From: Octadecabacter sp. B2R22
GTDB lineage: Bacteria; Pseudomonadota; Alphaproteobacteria; Rhodobacterales; Rhodobacteraceae
Assembly (NCBI RefSeq): GCF_018861045.1
Contig: NZ_JAHKQJ010000007.1
Coordinates: 1,271,511 to 1,335,510, forward strand
Direction of reading: 5' to 3'
Length of the DNA stretch: 64,000 bases
Shown: positions 53,336 to 63,465 of the stretch, one piece after another
Layout: each line of letters opens with the position of its first letter
Position numbering within the stretch: position 1 is the first letter of the stretch
The notes under the pieces: generated by a model
Seen by the model: only the letters and a program-made list of their open reading frames with translations
Databases searched by the model: none
Told to the model about the DNA's origin: nothing
Position numbers and translations under genes: made by a program

Positions 53336-53410
53336 GGTCCCTTCGTCTATCGGTTAGGACGCCAGGTTTTCAACCTGGAAAGAGGGGTTCGATTCCCCTA
53401 GGGACTGCCA
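53336..53410 (+). tRNA. tRNA-Glu (anticodon TTC), CCA encoded
   Basis: A full cloverleaf is visible: acceptor GGTCCCT with AGGGACT (one G-T pair), D-arm region CGTCTATCGGTTAGGACG, anticodon stem CCAGG/CCTGG with loop TTTTCAA giving TTC, T-arm AGGGG-TTCGATT-CCCCT, then G-CCA. It is the likely attachment site of the element that follows: the integrase gene ends 80 bp from its 3' end. Confidence 0.95.
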
Positions 53411-53489
53411 TTGGTGCTTTCAACATATTGAGTTTCCTTATCTTTCTTTTCTGGGTGTCCAACCACCTAGTAAGGTTGGACATTGCTTG

Positions 53490-54521
53490 TTAATTTTCAG
53501 TACTTGATAGCTTCGCCATTCCGCTCGCGGCCATCTTAGCTCGGTTCGCCGTAACAACGTATTCTGCAGCCTGACTCGTATCCGAATGAGCCAGGTAAGA
53601 TGCGATTTCCCATTCCGTAGCCCCGTGCTCAGCGAGCCTGGTCGCGCCGGCTTTACGGAGGCCATGGGAGTTTGCACTCGGAATATTTAAGCCCGCTTCA
53701 ACTGTCCGAGCTTTAAACCAGTTGCCATAACTTTCAGCTTTGTAAGCACGTCCGCCGGAATGCGTCAGAAACAGGAACTGATCTCGCGAGACTAGGTCTA
53801 GCTCCTTCTGCAAATCTGGAAGGATCGGCAACGTGGTTGCTACGGTCGTTTTTCCACGCGCATAGCTGATTGTGCTATTCTTGACGTTCCCCCAACCCAA
53901 TCGGACCAAGTCCTGTCGAGCGGCACCGGTATTCAGCGCCAACTCCAACGCGAGTCGTGGTTTGGTCCCGCTTGAGTGTTTTCTACGAAAAACAGCAATG
54001 TCCTCATCAGACCAGGTATAAAAACCGAGACTGTTTTCTTTACGCTTTACGGCACGGCGGGCAGGGTTGATTTCGAGCCCAAACCCTTCATCAATTGCGA
54101 AGTTGAAAAGACGACTGCAGTTCTTTTTGACCTTGTTGGCCGCCGCAGGCCCCTCCTTTCGCTTCATGACTGCTTCGATATGGCGCTTTTCAAATGATTT
54201 GAAAGGCAGACCACCAACTGCTTTCATCAACCAGTCCAGCTCTCCTCTCAGAACCTTCTTCGACGAGTCAGCTAAGTTGCCATATTTAATTGACATCAAG
54301 TACTGCTCGCACAGCCAATTCATGGTGCCAGGCTCAGCTCTCAATTTCTTTTCGTTGGCAATGCCCGCAACAGCATTTTCATATGCCTTGCGAAATTCAA
54401 CGGATCCGTAGTCTCCATGTAAGTAGCACGAGTGTGTTTTCCGGCGGTAACGCCATCGTACTTTGCCGTGCCTATCTGTGACTCGCGTCACGCCGGGGAA
54501 CGGGTTCTTACGCTTTCTCAT
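53490..54521 (-). CDS. Tyrosine-type site-specific integrase
   Basis: 343 residues from the ATG at 54519–54521, which overlaps the stop of the HTH gene (ATGA); the upstream in-frame start at 54539 is less likely. N-terminal SAM-like core-binding domain (residues ~70–165), then the catalytic domain with Arg in NTGAARQDLVRLGW, HGLRKAGATRLAEHG (HxxR), an AHSD in the H/W position and Tyr in AAEYVVTA. It integrates the element into the neighbouring tRNA-Glu. It lies at the extreme left of the element, reading toward the tRNA, the standard arrangement. Confidence 0.93.
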   Translation of the reverse strand: MRKRKNPFPGVTRVTDRHGKVRWRYRRKTHSCYLHGDYGSVEFRKAYENAVAGIANEKKLRAEPGTMNWLCEQYLMSIKYGNLADSSKKVLRGELDWLMKAVGGLPFKSFEKRHIEAVMKRKEGPAAANKVKKNCSRLFNFAIDEGFGLEINPARRAVKRKENSLGFYTWSDEDIAVFRRKHSSGTKPRLALELALNTGAARQDLVRLGWGNVKNSTISYARGKTTVATTLPILPDLQKELDLVSRDQFLFLTHSGGRAYKAESYGNWFKARTVEAGLNIPSANSHGLRKAGATRLAEHGATEWEIASYLAHSDTSQAAEYVVTANRAKMAASGMAKLSSTEN

Positions 54522-54772
54522 GCGATCAACCGATCGCATGGGTTATAGGCTTGAACCTCATCCGCCTCTGGTAAGCAAAACAATGCGTCGTCCAAGTCGT
54601 TTCGAAGCCATACCTTGACACCCTCCCCCAACACACGCGGTTGAGGAAAAACACCGTTCTCCACCATCTTAACGAAATAAGTCGCGCTGACGCCGCAATA
54701 TACGGCTGCATCAGCACGCCGAAGCGCGGCTGGGATTGCTCTTAGCTGTTGTAAATTCTTTGTCATCGTCAT
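54518..54772 (-). CDS. Excisionase/AlpA-like helix-turn-helix protein
   Basis: 84 residues. A winged-HTH of the MerR/excisionase type: LRRADAAVYCGVSATYFVKMVENGVFPQPRVLGEGVKVWLRNDLDDAL, where the Trp in the wing and the 'R.LG..V.W…DLD.AL' pattern match AlpA/excisionase-like proteins. It probably controls excision direction or integrase expression. It overlaps the integrase start and the stop of the upstream gene by 4 bp each, forming a three-gene operon. Confidence 0.82.
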   Translation of the reverse strand: MTMTKNLQQLRAIPAALRRADAAVYCGVSATYFVKMVENGVFPQPRVLGEGVKVWLRNDLDDALFCLPEADEVQAYNPCDRLIA

Positions 54773-56536: not shown

Positions 56537-57280
56537 TTACTCTTCAAACCAACCAGTTTGCAAAGCTCGTGCCCAATCGCGCCGTTCGTTTAAGAGAGCG
56601 CAATCACTGGCTTGCTTGGCATCGTAGAGAACAGAACGGAAAGTGACGTTCCATTCACCATGGTGCCTTTCTAGCAACGCATAAGAAGCGTTCGGTGTGC
56701 CCGTCTGCATATAATGGTAGACGGGCATGTCATCGTCGTACGCCGGACATCCAACACTGCCGGGGTTCACGATAACACGACCATCCGGCAAACGAACGCA
56801 TCGCGGAATGTGAGTGTGCGCGCACAGGATGAGGCTCGCGTCCACGCCATCTGCCTCCGCCTTCACTTCCGCCAAGCTTGCTGGACGTACAACTCCATTA
56901 TTTTCCACTCGTTCAAGCCAATAGGTCGAGTCGCTTCTTGGGGTTGCATGGCACAAGAAGACGTCGTCAAAGACAGTCCGCGTTGTTGGAAGATCAGCTA
57001 TCCATTGCAGGTGTTGTTCCGACAATTGATCTAGGGCCACTCGGTCCGAAGGCCCCATATTAGTTGGGTCTTGTTCGATGAGGTATCTGTCATGATTACC
57101 TCGAACCGATGCAAAATCACGCTCCATTAGAATAGACGCAGTCTTTGCAGCGTCGATGGGCCCACTAAAGAAATCTCCAAGATTCACAGCATCTGTAACC
57201 CCAAGAGCATCCATGTCCTGAAGCACTGCCTCGAGGGCAAATGAGTTTCCGTGTATATCAGCTAAAACTGCAAACTTCAT
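56537..57280 (-). CDS. Metallophosphoesterase (YfcE/MJ0936-like)
   Basis: 247 residues. Calcineurin-like fold: DIHGNSFALEAVL (DxH), NLGDFFSGP (GD), VRGNHDRYL (GNHD), ILCAHTHIPRC (GHxH variant, CAHTHIP) and VNPGSVGCPAYDDD. All metal ligands are present. The substrate is a phosphodiester or phosphoprotein of unknown identity. Stand-alone cargo gene with a weak ribosome-binding site (AAAGATG). Confidence 0.9.
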   Translation of the reverse strand: MKFAVLADIHGNSFALEAVLQDMDALGVTDAVNLGDFFSGPIDAAKTASILMERDFASVRGNHDRYLIEQDPTNMGPSDRVALDQLSEQHLQWIADLPTTRTVFDDVFLCHATPRSDSTYWLERVENNGVVRPASLAEVKAEADGVDASLILCAHTHIPRCVRLPDGRVIVNPGSVGCPAYDDDMPVYHYMQTGTPNASYALLERHHGEWNVTFRSVLYDAKQASDCALLNERRDWARALQTGWFEE

Positions 57281-58187: not shown

Positions 58188-59300
58188 ATGGGACCACAGT
58201 TCGCACATATGCAGGCATTCAGCATCAAGCCTAACCGTCAGGGTAACAGCATCGAACAAGTGCTGGCTGAAGCCATTCGTGAAGCCAAATTTTCCACTCA
58301 CATCGACGATCCAAAGCCACCCACCATAATTTATGGTGTTGACCTTCCAACGCTGAAAACCCTGCATGATGAGATGCTCGACCAGCGAAAGGTCGAAGTA
58401 AAGATAAAGGGCAAAGTACGTTATCGAGCGATCAGAAAAGACCGGAATACGTTGATGACAGTGATCTCTTCCTTCCCAGTCCGCATTGCTGACCTCGACA
58501 AAGATGGGACCGGTGAGACACGCCGGTTGTATGAGAAATGGAAGAAACTCAACACCAATCATTTGAAAAATCTTTTCGGGGACAAACTCAAAACCGTTAT
58601 CGAACACACCGACGAGGAATACCCCCACCTGCACGCATACATTCTTCCAGACGATGACCCAGGAGCATTTGCAAATGCGCTCCACCCTGGGGAAGTCGCC
58701 AAAGCTGATGCTGCCAAGAAAGCCAAATCCGAGGGCCTGACAGGCGAAGCGATCAACAAGGTTGCCAACAAAGGCTATCAGGCGGCTATGAGCGGTTGGC
58801 AGGATGACTTCTATGAAGCTGTCGGCGCTCCATGTGCCTTGACCCGTGATGGCCCTAAAAGAACCCGTAAAACGCGTGCGAGGTGGCAAGCTGAGAAGAT
58901 CGCGGCAAGAGCCACCGCTGATGTCATTGAAAAGAACCAGACTGAGACAAAGGCACTGGAATTGGAAGCCCGCGCTTTACGCACTCAGTCTGATACTCTC
59001 GATGATGCCGAAGATGAGAACGAGGCTGCTCGCAAGGAAATTGAGGAAGATCGCGCAATCATCGCGAGAGATCGCCAGAAATTGAATGAGGATCGCAAAA
59101 GGCTGAATGCAGACCGTGCCAAATTCAAAAAGACAATCGACAAGGTGAAAGATGGAATTCAGCGCATCTTCGATGTGGTGGCCGATAAGCTTGGTGTATC
59201 AATTGCGGGGGTTCCAAGAGTACTTGAGGCCATGAAAATCCTCATCGACGCTGCTGATGATCTGGACGCAGTCGAGCCGGATGATGAGCCCAGCTTATAA
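58188..59300 (+). CDS. MobV/Pre family relaxase (plasmid recombination/mobilization protein)
   Basis: 370 residues. N-terminal domain up to ~residue 200, with VISSFP and the diagnostic metal site VIEHTDEEYPHLHAYILPDDD (HxDExxPHxH) around residues 137–157. The C-terminal third is a long coiled coil (KALELEARALRTQSDTLDDAEDENEAARKEIEEDRAIIARDRQKLNEDRKRL), as in Pre/Mob proteins. It should nick oriT and carry the strand in trans-mobilization. Start could also be the ATG at 58209 (MQAFSIKPNR); neither has a strong ribosome-binding site. Confidence 0.85.
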   Translation: MGPQFAHMQAFSIKPNRQGNSIEQVLAEAIREAKFSTHIDDPKPPTIIYGVDLPTLKTLHDEMLDQRKVEVKIKGKVRYRAIRKDRNTLMTVISSFPVRIADLDKDGTGETRRLYEKWKKLNTNHLKNLFGDKLKTVIEHTDEEYPHLHAYILPDDDPGAFANALHPGEVAKADAAKKAKSEGLTGEAINKVANKGYQAAMSGWQDDFYEAVGAPCALTRDGPKRTRKTRARWQAEKIAARATADVIEKNQTETKALELEARALRTQSDTLDDAEDENEAARKEIEEDRAIIARDRQKLNEDRKRLNADRAKFKKTIDKVKDGIQRIFDVVADKLGVSIAGVPRVLEAMKILIDAADDLDAVEPDDEPSL

Positions 59301-59662: not shown

Positions 59663-60742
59663 TCATCCAGGAACCCCAAGTGAGCGTGCAATCGAAGTCA
59701 GGATCGCCTCAGCAAACAAAGGATTCACACTATTTCCAATCATCCGATGCGAGTGCCATTTAGTGGGGTGGAAGTCGAACCAATCAGGAAACCCCTGAAT
59801 CCTTGCTGCTTCACGCACCGAGACCACACGTGGGGACACATGATGGATCGGGCGAGCGGATTGAAAAGAACCTTTATCAACACCTGTTCCAGCACGTAAC
59901 GTCCGAGCAGGTTCGTTGGGGTTTAATCGAAAAAACCGGCTTACCTTCTCCGTTTTACCTTGTGGAGTGGCTGAGAACCGACTCTCTACTTCTGGCGAAT
60001 GCTTCGTCGCCTCAAAGCCGCTTACACGACAATCAGAGTGTGCGTTAAGTTTGCAAGCGTCACCCAAATCTACAGACCTGCGATTGATGAACCTCACATA
60101 TGGACTATCAACCAGCCCAACTTCGGCGACATCTGTAGTTCCCGGCTCTGGTAAACCCTCCAATGCTTGGCTCACTGTCGCAGGGGCACGTCGGTTTTTA
60201 TTGATCATTCCAAATGAAATTGGATCAACATCAGTCGGATCGTAGCCGATCACCAGAACACGTTTTCTACGCGTCGCCGCTCCGAAATCTGCTGCATCCA
60301 AAACAGAAGGCGTCAGAACAACATAACTGCTTGGCACCCGTTGCAGAGCTCGTTCGAGTAGCTGAAAACTAGACTTGCTGAGCAGCCCAGGAACATTTTC
60401 CATCATGAAAGCTCGAGGCTTCAGATCAGATACAATTTGGAAAAACCGATCAAGAAGGTCATTTCTTGGATCACTTTGATTTCGTTTACCTATGTAGCTA
60501 AAACCTTGACATGGCGGTCCGCCAATCACAAGGTCTGGCCTACCGCTATAGAGCGAGTTGATCGCTGCGGAATCAACTTTTGACAGGTCAAGCTTGGCAG
60601 TTTTACAGTGTGGGAAATTCTTTGAGTGAGCGGCAGCAGCATGATCATCCAGTTCGACAGCCAAATTTGGCGACAAGCCGGCTCGGGCAGCACCAAGTGA
60701 GAGGCCGCCACAGCCAGCAAAGAGATCGATTACAGTTACCAT
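59663..60742 (-). CDS. DNA (cytosine-5-)-methyltransferase
   Basis: 359 residues with AAGGAG before the ATG. All core C5-MTase motifs are seen: I VIDLFAGCGGLSLGA, IV GGPPCQGFSYIG (catalytic Cys), VI MMENVPGL, VIII ATRRKRVLVIG, IX EPARTLRAG, X HRMIGNSVNPLFAEAI; the target-recognition region lies between VIII and IX (about residues 170–260). Site specificity cannot be read. It is divergent from the GHKL ATPase across 102 bp. Association of such enzymes with GHKL/MORC ATPases is known from comparative genomics of restriction-modification systems. Confidence 0.95.
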   Translation of the reverse strand: MVTVIDLFAGCGGLSLGAARAGLSPNLAVELDDHAAAAHSKNFPHCKTAKLDLSKVDSAAINSLYSGRPDLVIGGPPCQGFSYIGKRNQSDPRNDLLDRFFQIVSDLKPRAFMMENVPGLLSKSSFQLLERALQRVPSSYVVLTPSVLDAADFGAATRRKRVLVIGYDPTDVDPISFGMINKNRRAPATVSQALEGLPEPGTTDVAEVGLVDSPYVRFINRRSVDLGDACKLNAHSDCRVSGFEATKHSPEVESRFSATPQGKTEKVSRFFRLNPNEPARTLRAGTGVDKGSFQSARPIHHVSPRVVSVREAARIQGFPDWFDFHPTKWHSHRMIGNSVNPLFAEAILTSIARSLGVPG

Positions 60743-60844
60743 AGTTACTCCTTAGAATATATAGTCAGAAGTGTCGATCGGAAAACATCAGACGACACCT
60801 AGGAAGAACATGAATTTCACTCTCCGACATTTAAGGGCGGGCCA
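60743..60844. promoter_or_regulatory. Divergent promoter region, methyltransferase / GHKL ATPase
   Basis: 102 bp must hold both promoters. AT-rich (AGAATATATAGTC near 60754). Such shared short gaps are typical of restriction-modification control regions; no clear C-box-like dyad was found. Confidence 0.45.
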
Positions 60845-62242
60845 ATGACAATAAGAACAATCGAAGCAGGGCCATCAAAAAGATTTTTCGTCGAGATGTT
60901 ACCGCGTGATATCAGCCTAGAATATGCGGTCCTAGACCTAATCGACAACAGCCTTGATGGAGCAATTCGTCAGCGGATTGATGACATCCGACTTCGTCGC
61001 GGCGAGCCCTATAAAGGTCTGCATTGCAAACTCAGCTTTTCCGAAACTGAATTTCAGATCACGGATAACTGTGGTGGCATACCCGCTGATAGGATCGACG
61101 CAGCCCTGAAGCTAGGTAGAGATGACCCAAATATTGACAACGACAAGCCGACGATTGGTATGTACGGCATCGGAATGAAGCGATCAATTTTCAAGATTAG
61201 CGCTGACTCAACCGTTGTTTCGAAGAGCGACACGATCACGACCCGTGTTAACTATGATGAAACGTGGATGAACCCTGAAAACCCTGACTGGACGCTAGAC
61301 CTGGAAGAAACGCCACCGGATGGCGGCGAGCTCGGCGTCACTATTTCCGCAAATAAGCTCTGGCCAAATATCTCGAGAACGTTCGCGTCCCAAAGCTTCT
61401 TTGACGACCTCACGAGAAAGATCTCGAGATACTACGCATATGTAATTGCAAAAGGTTTTAAGATCTTTGTTAACGACAAAGAAATACCGGCATTGCCAGT
61501 AGAATTTAAACTCGATGATGCAGTGATTTCACCTTTTTACTACGAAGCGGTTGCAGAAAAGGTCAACGTCAAAGTCATTGTTGGATTGTTCCGGAAGTTG
61601 ACCAAAGAAGATGAACGGGAAGAAGCCATATCCTCAAATGACGGTTTAGAAGCAGGAGACCTTAAGGCTGGGATTACCGTCGTTTGCAATGACCGTGTGA
61701 TCACATATGCAGACACCTCATCAGTGACTGGCTGGGGGATGGGGAATGTTCCAAGATACCACCCACAGTTTCGATCAATCACCGGCATAATAATCTTCGA
61801 GTCCGACGATGCTAGAACGCTTCCCGTATCCACAACCAAGGGGGCTTTAGATTTAGATGACCGTGCCTACGTCGTTGGACTTAACGCTGCTATGGAGGGA
61901 ATAAAGACACATACAGATTACACGAACCGAACCAAAGGCCGCGAGAGCGCGACCGATACGCCAATTCAATCAGCCCCTAAACTCTCCATCGCGCAAGTAA
62001 CCCAATCACTTAGCTCTTCTGCTAGAGCAGTTCGACATTCAAACGGTAAGGCAAGAAAGGTTGTTCCCACCCTTCCAGAGATTAAGCGCACAGCCCCGAT
62101 AGGCCGAATAGCTTTCAGCAGAGATAAGGCAGAGATCGAACGTGTAGCAGAGCTGCTTGGTCTCAGCACCAGCGAAAAGCCCGGAGTAGTCGGTGAACAA
62201 GTTTGGACTGACTTGGCCCGAAAGCTTGGAGTTATAGACTGA
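60845..62242 (+). CDS. GHKL ATPase (MORC/MutL-like), R-M-associated
   Basis: 465 residues. N-terminal GHKL ATPase: N-box AVLDLIDNSLDGAI (~residues 28–41), G1 ITDNCGGIPADRID, G2 IGMYGIGMKRSIFKIS; the residue in the usual catalytic Glu place is Asp (VLDLIDN). A central S5-like/MutL-type domain follows (residues ~180–340), then a low-complexity linker and a basic C-terminal segment (GKARKVVPTLPEIKRTAPIGR … TSEKPGVVGEQVWTDLARKLGV). Its stop TGA overlaps the next ATG by 1 nt. The family of ATP-binding proteins with this IDNSxDG / DNCGGI signature occurs beside DNA methyltransferases. Confidence 0.85.
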   Translation: MTIRTIEAGPSKRFFVEMLPRDISLEYAVLDLIDNSLDGAIRQRIDDIRLRRGEPYKGLHCKLSFSETEFQITDNCGGIPADRIDAALKLGRDDPNIDNDKPTIGMYGIGMKRSIFKISADSTVVSKSDTITTRVNYDETWMNPENPDWTLDLEETPPDGGELGVTISANKLWPNISRTFASQSFFDDLTRKISRYYAYVIAKGFKIFVNDKEIPALPVEFKLDDAVISPFYYEAVAEKVNVKVIVGLFRKLTKEDEREEAISSNDGLEAGDLKAGITVVCNDRVITYADTSSVTGWGMGNVPRYHPQFRSITGIIIFESDDARTLPVSTTKGALDLDDRAYVVGLNAAMEGIKTHTDYTNRTKGRESATDTPIQSAPKLSIAQVTQSLSSSARAVRHSNGKARKVVPTLPEIKRTAPIGRIAFSRDKAEIERVAELLGLSTSEKPGVVGEQVWTDLARKLGVID

Positions 62243-63222
62243 TGCCAAGCAATTATACGACCCGACCGAACAAACATGTCGACAGGGAGCTCTTCGTCGA
62301 TTTGGTTGGCTGTACAGTTTCAAATACTCAAATTGAGAGGTGTGCATACATTTCGATGGGTGGGCCGCAGATGACCGATCACATTGCTATGTATAGGCGC
62401 AACGGGATATCGAAGCTTTACTCGTTTGACTTGGAAAGCAACATTGTACTTCGACAACAGTTCAACGCTCCCACACAGAACACACAATGTAAAACTCATA
62501 CTGCCGCTGAGCTACCAGCAAAACTTAATGACATAGGTCACGACCTAGATATTGATCAGTTTATTGTTTGGTTTGACTTCACTGGAGCCAGGGAACGCGG
62601 ATCTCAGCTCGCCGATTTTCAAGCCCTTCTACAGGCACTTTCACCTGGAGATATCGCGCGGGTCGCGCTGGATGCATCCCTCCCTTCAGAAAAATTAAAA
62701 GCTGAATTGTCTAAGGAAATCCAGGATCATCATTTTCCAGCAATGAATGCTCTCCTGGGACGAGAATTCGGAAACTTCCATCCAGAGAATTTCACATTAA
62801 CGTCGCAAAATGACATGTCTAAGTATTTGTCTGCCTGTATTCAGCATCTTTGTGATCGAGCTACCGAATTGCACCCAAGTGGACAAATTTCTTATCGCCC
62901 AATGCTGCAGACCTACTATGCAGATAGTTCGCCGATGTTTACAGTGACAATTCTCATTCAAAACGCACAAGGTGAACCCGCAGCCCCGAATGGTTTTTGT
63001 TATTTGGCCACTGATTGGAACGACATCGAGAACCTAGAAGTTCCCGAACTCACAGCTCGAGAAAAGTCCTACTTGGATCGCCTGCTCGATCGTGATGCTG
63101 CAGGTTTGACAGGTGAGTTAGGATATGAAATCGCGCGCGCCGCACAGATGTCACGACAATGGGACTCGTTTAAAAAGTTTCACCGCTTTTTACCTCAGTT
63201 TCAGCACGTCGAATTAAAGTAG
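62242..63222 (+). CDS. Unknown partner of the GHKL ATPase
   Basis: 326 residues, start codon overlapping the ATPase stop by 1 nt (TGATG), so translation is coupled. It has a Rossmann-like central part: CAYISMGGPQMTDHIAMYRRNGISKLYSFDLE resembles a nucleotide/SAM-fold first strand and loop with following acidic strand, and FIVWFDFTGARERGSQLADFQALLQAL an acidic fourth strand (DFTG). No methyltransferase catalytic motif (NPPY/DPPY/PC) is present, and no PD-(D/E)xK or HNH is visible. Similar two-gene pairs are seen in bacteria but I cannot name a function. Confidence 0.7.
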   Translation: MPSNYTTRPNKHVDRELFVDLVGCTVSNTQIERCAYISMGGPQMTDHIAMYRRNGISKLYSFDLESNIVLRQQFNAPTQNTQCKTHTAAELPAKLNDIGHDLDIDQFIVWFDFTGARERGSQLADFQALLQALSPGDIARVALDASLPSEKLKAELSKEIQDHHFPAMNALLGREFGNFHPENFTLTSQNDMSKYLSACIQHLCDRATELHPSGQISYRPMLQTYYADSSPMFTVTILIQNAQGEPAAPNGFCYLATDWNDIENLEVPELTAREKSYLDRLLDRDAAGLTGELGYEIARAAQMSRQWDSFKKFHRFLPQFQHVELK

Positions 63223-63387: not shown

Positions 63388-63465
63388 TGGTAGGAATGGC
63401 GGGATTTGAACCCGCGCTGACGACACTTATAAGGTGCCCGCTCTTACCACCTGAGCTACACTCCC
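63388..63465 (-). tRNA. tRNA-Ile (anticodon TAT), CCA encoded
   Basis: Cloverleaf on the minus strand: acceptor GGGAGTG/CATTCCT (two G-T pairs), D-stem GCTC/GAGC, anticodon stem GGCAC/GTGTC with loop CTTATAA so that U33 precedes TAT, a 6-nt variable loop, T-stem GCGGG/CCCGC with loop TTCAAAT, then A-CCA. Anticodon TAT reads AUA (Ile). Most bacteria read AUA with a lysidine-modified CAT tRNA, so TAT is uncommon outside mobile DNA and phages. Lies in the mobile element. Confidence 0.88.

Follow-up and report, generated by a model that had tools for sequence, protein, structure and literature searches.

A 64,000-nucleotide stretch of the Octadecabacter sp. B2R22 genome (the window) carries a three-gene module consisting of a C5-cytosine DNA methyltransferase (C5-MTase), a MORC-family GHKL ATPase and a partner protein with a methyltransferase fold, and these genes form a conserved, co-varying set that is carried by mobile elements and also occupies a defence hotspot known from P2 prophages. 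As judged from sequence and gene neighbourhood, the module is probably a restriction-modification-like anti-phage or anti-plasmid system that travels as cargo of an integrative, and probably mobilisable, element. A sequence-only reading of this DNA had proposed a defence module at this site, and its description of the layout was accurate: the minus-strand C5-MTase faces the plus-strand ATPase gene across 102 bp, the ATPase contains the motifs IDNSLDG, DNCGGI and GIGMKRS, and its stop codon (TGA, 62240-62242) shares one base with the start (ATG, 62242) of the plus-strand ORF (open reading frame) encoding the 326-residue partner. The C5-MTase supplies the DNA methyltransferase component expected of a Type II restriction-modification system (PF00145, 1.3e-55) and is the sole PF00145 match in the host genome (E <= 0.001).

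The ATPase matches HATPase_c_3 (3.7e-13, Pfam) and joins a GHKL domain to an S5-like domain, as is the case in the prokaryotic MORC family. The MORC-specific S5 motif GhXhhpXXRhl is satisfied by GITVVCNDRVI, and the signature is present at the aligned position in 86 of 89 relatives, as compared to 6 of 1780 shuffled sequences and 3 of 280 C5-MTase or partner ORFs. This motif bears out the relationship to the MORC proteins of Iyer and colleagues that the sequence-only reading had suggested. That reading had also pointed to an N-box Asp in place of the usual Glu. The residue is indeed present (D31), but it is not a local oddity, since Asp occupies this position in 88 of 89 aligned relatives; the N-box of the second GHKL genes found in some surveyed loci likewise starts with Asp (8 of 8). 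A degenerate catalytic residue was rejected on these two counts.

The partner, previously taken to be the undescribed piece of the module, belongs to a named Pfam family, PF20553 (Methyltransf_35, "Putative O-methyltransferase"), which it matches at 3.8e-55 and 187.9 bits against a curated cut-off of 27. The same family was matched by all 89 partner proteins at E up to 0.1. The predicted model (mean pLDDT 93.2) has a class I S-adenosylmethionine (SAM)-dependent methyltransferase fold, and the fold-search rows listed are mostly SAM methyltransferases; judged by title, a probable spermidine synthase and entries labelled DUF are among the exceptions. A search of BFVD returned methyltransferase-like viral proteins and no closer lead. 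The model and the Pfam match together indicate that the partner is a methyltransferase-fold member of this family. The proposal that the missing nuclease role resides in the partner was rejected: no nuclease family matched it in Pfam at E up to 1, its sequence was unmatched in the PDB set at E up to 1, and the fold rows point to methyltransferases, although the fold lists alone leave another activity possible. Among the 89 partner proteins, one stray GIY_YIG_2 match (0.039) was seen in a single member. The statement that the partner has no classical nuclease or methyltransferase motif therefore holds for nucleases, as far as Pfam at E up to 1 shows, and fails for methyltransferases. RNA methyltransferases (Trm1, RlmJ and others) provide many of the best VIA-align rows. 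Trm1, the tRNA guanine-26 methyltransferase, is the top row, but the match is one of fold only, and this identity was rejected because the TRM family (PF02005) was found in 0 of 89 partners at E up to 0.1. In hhalign of the partner against eight narrow cyanobacterial Trm1 sequences the probability was 0.1 out of 100, much as for the C5-MTase and GHKL controls at 0.2. PF20553 is sparse: it was found in 2 of the 289 genomes from the same class and in 5 of the 398 from the same phylum, with the window genome counted in both.

To define how often the three genes occur together, relatives were collected using four seed ATPases, all of them from loci with the partner, which biases the counts that follow. 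The best 80 of 175 relatives in a genome-contig scan, 54 loci from a viral-contig scan, the window and seven earlier loci gave 142 loci, which formed 103 clusters at 80% ATPase identity; counts were made on cluster representatives, misses included, and locus L033, in which the partner is split into two ORFs, was still counted. The partner adjoins the ATPase in 97 of the 103 non-redundant loci, a C5-MTase lies within 5 kb in 90, and both are present in 86; a Vsr nuclease is found in 35 and a second GHKL gene in 8. Where at least 4.5 kb of flank was available on both sides (63 loci), the partner is present in 62, the C5-MTase in 55, both in 54, Vsr in 23 and a second GHKL gene in 5, so that the recurrent three-gene co-occurrence foreseen for a defence module is observed, within the restriction-modification-type neighbourhood that is a trait of prokaryotic MORCs. 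Other companions present in at least 3 loci, named partly by reading, are integrases, P2 structural and replication genes, families of phage or regulator type, one family resembling ParB/methyltransferase proteins and three minor ones that look nuclease-like. Searches seeded with the partner or PF20553 led to seven places outside the window genome (genomes G039, G605, G368, G469 and G566, a Microvirga plasmid and phage PfAC20). The ATPase is directly beside the partner in all seven, and a C5-MTase is within ~1.5 kb in five; the Microvirga locus has it ~7.6 kb farther upstream, and in G566 there is none.

Across the 84 loci with all three genes, distance correlations were 0.83 for ATPase and partner, 0.43 for ATPase and C5-MTase, and 0.42 for partner and C5-MTase, and none of 1000 permutations reached any of the three values. 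When only distant pairs were considered, the correlations dropped to 0.64, 0.20 and 0.17, respectively. Because of this order, which is the informative part, the ATPase and partner appear to travel as one unit with a more exchangeable C5-MTase. The placement of the C5-MTase also varies across loci: downstream convergent in 44, upstream co-directional in 28, upstream divergent, as in the window, in 7, and downstream co-directional in 5.

The contexts of the module elsewhere are of the defence type, as had been proposed, and mobile. In P2-like prophages, 22 loci in 5 clusters have a relative of the portal gene of locus L100, and 45 of 5426 complete E. coli genomes contain a region ~78% DNA-identical to that of L100 by megablast, a search that misses more distant versions. 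In the E. coli P2 version inspected, the three module genes are the only ones annotated by RefSeq between the portal and the replication endonuclease; the annotations of the E. coli version read ATP-binding protein, O-methyltransferase and DNA cytosine methyltransferase. The region beside the P2 portal gene is a defence hotspot described by Vassallo et al. (PMC9519451), and the P2-like phage KL3 has an EcoRII-type endonuclease, Vsr and a C5-methylase downstream of its portal gene (PMC3091744). The Pf phage PfAC20 also carries the module, of which its source paper notes the cytosine methyltransferase alone in the text available (PMC11878078). At L035, L046 and L052, Tn7-like transposition genes adjoin the module (TnsA and TniQ of L035 confirmed by Pfam, TnsB and TnsC labels by reading), each with a second, longer MORC-like GHKL gene, and here the module appears to be Tn7-type cargo. 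At L026 (8234-9874), a second MORC-like GHKL protein has a C-terminal Hypoth_Ymh (PF09509) domain. On Microvirga plasmid pR24_2 (L008, 8558-10972), the pair sits inside an annotated DISARM locus that begins with a C5-MTase and Vsr, and is flanked there by drmA and a gene annotated as MmeI-like; this arrangement may be a DISARM subtype. In L018, the nearest relative found, a TIR protein and a MobA_MobL relaxase are close to the module.

In the window genome, the module is cargo of a 12.4-kb integrated element (53394-65829; Table 1) at a tRNA-Glu site, because 23-bp repeats bracket it and the corresponding site is empty in G710, where left and right flank join directly and share precisely those 23 bp. 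G710 is the closest of the relatives examined, with an adjacent 603-residue protein 98% identical. The element has a relaxase-like gene and is probably mobilisable; a 591-residue element protein has a Rep_1 match below cut-off. No restriction-nuclease domain was recognised among 11 element ORFs scanned with Pfam, no helicase or nuclease was recognised at the window locus, and a search of the host genome for Vsr was negative; a cognate nuclease may be of unrecognised type or unlinked. The element also contains a tRNA-Ile with anticodon TAT, a rarer type that decodes AUA. Stretches related to the element, at ~71-87% identity, are located directly after the same att sequence in L175 (genome G706).

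Table 1. Coordinates of the module and of the element that carries it, in window numbering.
Feature	Position	Strand	Evidence or remark
C5-cytosine DNA methyltransferase, 359 aa	59663..60742	-	Pfam PF00145 DNA_methylase 1.3e-55; PADLOC MTase_II 1.2e-92
Divergent intergenic region between C5-MTase and GHKL genes, 102 bp	60743..60844	.	
MORC-type GHKL ATPase, 465 aa	60845..62242	+	MORC signature GITVVCNDRVI at residue 276; N-box Asp31/Asn35
Partner, PF20553 Methyltransf_35, predicted class I SAM-methyltransferase fold, 326 aa	62242..63222	+	
tRNA-Glu (TTC), integration site	53336..53410	+	ARAGORN
attL, 23-bp direct repeat at tRNA-Glu 3' end	53394..53416	+	
attR, second 23-bp copy	65807-65829		beyond window end
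Tyrosine integrase	53490..54539	-	Pfam Phage_integrase 1.1e-13
MobV/Mob_Pre-like relaxase	58188..59300	+	NCBIfam MobV 3.1e-10, 40.4 bits vs cut-off 100; Pfam Mob_Pre 20.7 bits vs 25.5
Calcineurin-like phosphoesterase beside module	56537-57280	-	Metallophos_2 3.3e-16
tRNA-Ile, anticodon TAT, inside element	63388-63465	-	

The module is of a kind already known, since Iyer, Abhiman and Aravind predicted in 2008 that bacterial MORCs occur in restriction-type operons, a minority of which have methylases or restriction endonucleases and no helicase (PMC2292703). The MORC-specific motif, the C5-MTase and Vsr neighbours and the lateral mobility are all shared with those operons. In contrast, no helicase or nuclease is recognised at the window locus, and PF20553 goes unmentioned in the part of that paper's text consulted, though the partner may be one of the uncharacterised X/Z domains of its figure 2. 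New here are the conserved partner, a core that often has no nuclease, and the settings in which the module occurs. The HEF_HK/Response_reg_2 pair, which occurs together with C5-MTase, Vsr and HNH genes (Bellieny-Rabelo et al. 2021, PMC8011034), is similar in that a GHKL gene is linked to a conserved partner gene, often with a C5-MTase upstream and Vsr or HNH nearby. Its partner, however, has a receiver fold rather than a methyltransferase fold, and an identity with this pair was rejected as PF19191 and PF19192 were unmatched by the window proteins at E up to 1. The ATPase has weak local GHKL-domain similarity to MzaB of the MZA system (PADLOC, 3.6e-7), but MzaB was rejected on score (22.9 bits versus an NCBIfam cut-off of 850), with PADLOC-model matches in 4 of 89 relatives (E <= 0.001). 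DISARM resembles the module through the pR24_2 locus and a similar gene order in L090, and differs in that no DrmA/B/C/D-like gene was found among the element ORFs listed or the 11 scanned with Pfam. VcSduA (paraMORC3/Shedu) of Vibrio cholerae, a proven phage defence that needs its ATPase activity and has a fused DUF4263 nuclease (PMC12137116), shares the GHKL ATPase and differs in that no nuclease is recognised in the window ATPase. A search of mostly open texts found no paper on the Methyltransf_35 partner or on the three-gene set, so absence in print is not established, and the words methyltransferase, methylase, GHKL and HATPase are all absent from the main text of Rousset 2022.

There are exceptions to the three-gene pattern. 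No C5-MTase lies within 5 kb in 8 of the 63 full-flank loci. It is farther upstream at L087, which clusters with the DISARM locus L008, and at L090, while the genomes of L032, L034, L041, L080 and L083 have 4 to 13 C5-MTase matches elsewhere. In G566, which holds L014 and in which no C5-MTase was found, the pair is divergent from genes for an SNF2-type helicase, a NOV_C protein and an N6_N4_Mtase (L014, 8780-16352); an N6/N4 enzyme in place of the C5-MTase would fit another DNA mark serving instead, in this single case. Conversely, one full-flank locus, L147, has the ATPase, C5-MTase and Vsr and lacks the partner. Beyond Vsr, three small families of possible nucleases each recur in 3-4 loci. 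The first matches HNH_2 (checked in L043), the second gives a weak HNH_5 match that falls below cut-off (L049), and the third (L010), for which Pfam returned no match, is PD-(D/E)xK-like by reading of the sequence alone. Since Vsr is absent from the surrounding 5 kb in 32 of the 55 full-flank loci that have a C5-MTase, the inspected E. coli P2 form has just its three genes annotated and no Vsr turned up in the window genome, the nuclease is, on present sequence evidence, an optional extra or else not recognised.

Several observations weigh against a restriction-modification-like role. Those 32 loci and the Vsr-free host genome leave the restriction step without a recognised enzyme. The cyanobacterial loci L032, L034 and L041 are without a C5-MTase within 5 kb, and L041 stands among what are read as ordinary genes. 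The pattern that had been held to speak against a defence module, a pair usually found without the methyltransferase and in core contexts, is therefore seen in part at a few loci such as these, although not in the survey overall. PADLOC scans of 145 of 219 near and 145 of 158 far neighbour proteins gave defence matches in both sets and no clear enrichment close to the module, in a comparison that covers the first 25 of 127 and of 117 families without a random background. Foldseek E-values for the ATPase rank Hsp90/TRAP1 first, ahead of MORC. Finally, besides the seed bias in the survey figures, shared descent alone can raise co-variation values.

Despite these points, a restriction-modification-like module remains the reading that we favour. 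Self DNA would be marked by the exchangeable C5-MTase. MORC, MutL and Topo VI B proteins close as ATP-driven dimeric clamps on DNA, and the window ATPase may close on DNA in the same way, with the partner as a putative subunit of its complex that would provide either SAM binding and recognition or nucleic-acid modification. Where the mark is missing, the ATPase-partner complex would block the DNA, and where Vsr, HNH or other nuclease genes have been added, it may also direct cutting. Because no nuclease is recognised in the three-gene form of the window, the end step there is more likely a block by entrapment or looping, or the use of a host nuclease. A stricter version, in which restriction is nuclease-free and the MORC clamp and partner recognise DNA lacking the C5 mark and silence it by topological entrapment, would be the bacterial equivalent of silencing by MORC proteins in eukaryotes, except that the mark would be read in the opposite sense; this we regard as a tentative and unlikely proposal.

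Other explanations draw on the same observations. The module could instead be protective, with the C5-MTase and partner, aided by the ATPase, modifying the DNA of the element or phage to evade host restriction without any attack on foreign DNA. Its presence in prophages, in a Pf phage and on integrative elements, the two methyltransferase folds and the many C5-MTase loci without nearby Vsr are consistent with such a cassette; simple methylation, however, needs no MORC-type ATPase, and the Vsr genes of 35 of 103 loci, the HNH matches in L043 and L049 and the location of the pair in a DISARM locus and the P2 defence hotspot weigh against it, and we rate protection alone as rather unlikely. Mobile carriers would also profit from addiction, and the overlap of the ATPase and partner genes, together with the RNA methyltransferases among the best VIA-align rows, points toward a partner that is a harmful RNA or DNA methyltransferase restrained by the C5 mark, such that loss of the mark or infection would free it and kill the cell; we consider this abortive-infection scheme improbable. 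The commonest companion nuclease seen, Vsr, raises the further idea that a MutL-like ATPase and Vsr-type nucleases mend deamination damage at 5-methylcytosine, and a Caulobacter Vsr-like protein has been tied to a solitary C5-MTase (PMC12907096). A role in repair or genome maintenance is nonetheless very improbable, as the search for Vsr in the window genome was negative, the gene is missing from the 5 kb around 40 of 63 full-flank loci, and the family is sparse and located on mobile elements.

Because PADLOC-DB 2.0.0 holds no match to the window partner at E up to 1, loci of this type probably tend to appear in reports as a lone methyltransferase of an incomplete system, as in the PfAC20 paper (PMC11878078). 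In plants and animals, MORC ATPases act in transposon silencing; for the bacterial members of the family, a role as parts of restriction systems was predicted in 2008. With the compact three-gene form present in E. coli P2 prophages, a laboratory strain is enough to test that prediction directly, and the conserved partner defined here belongs in any test of it.

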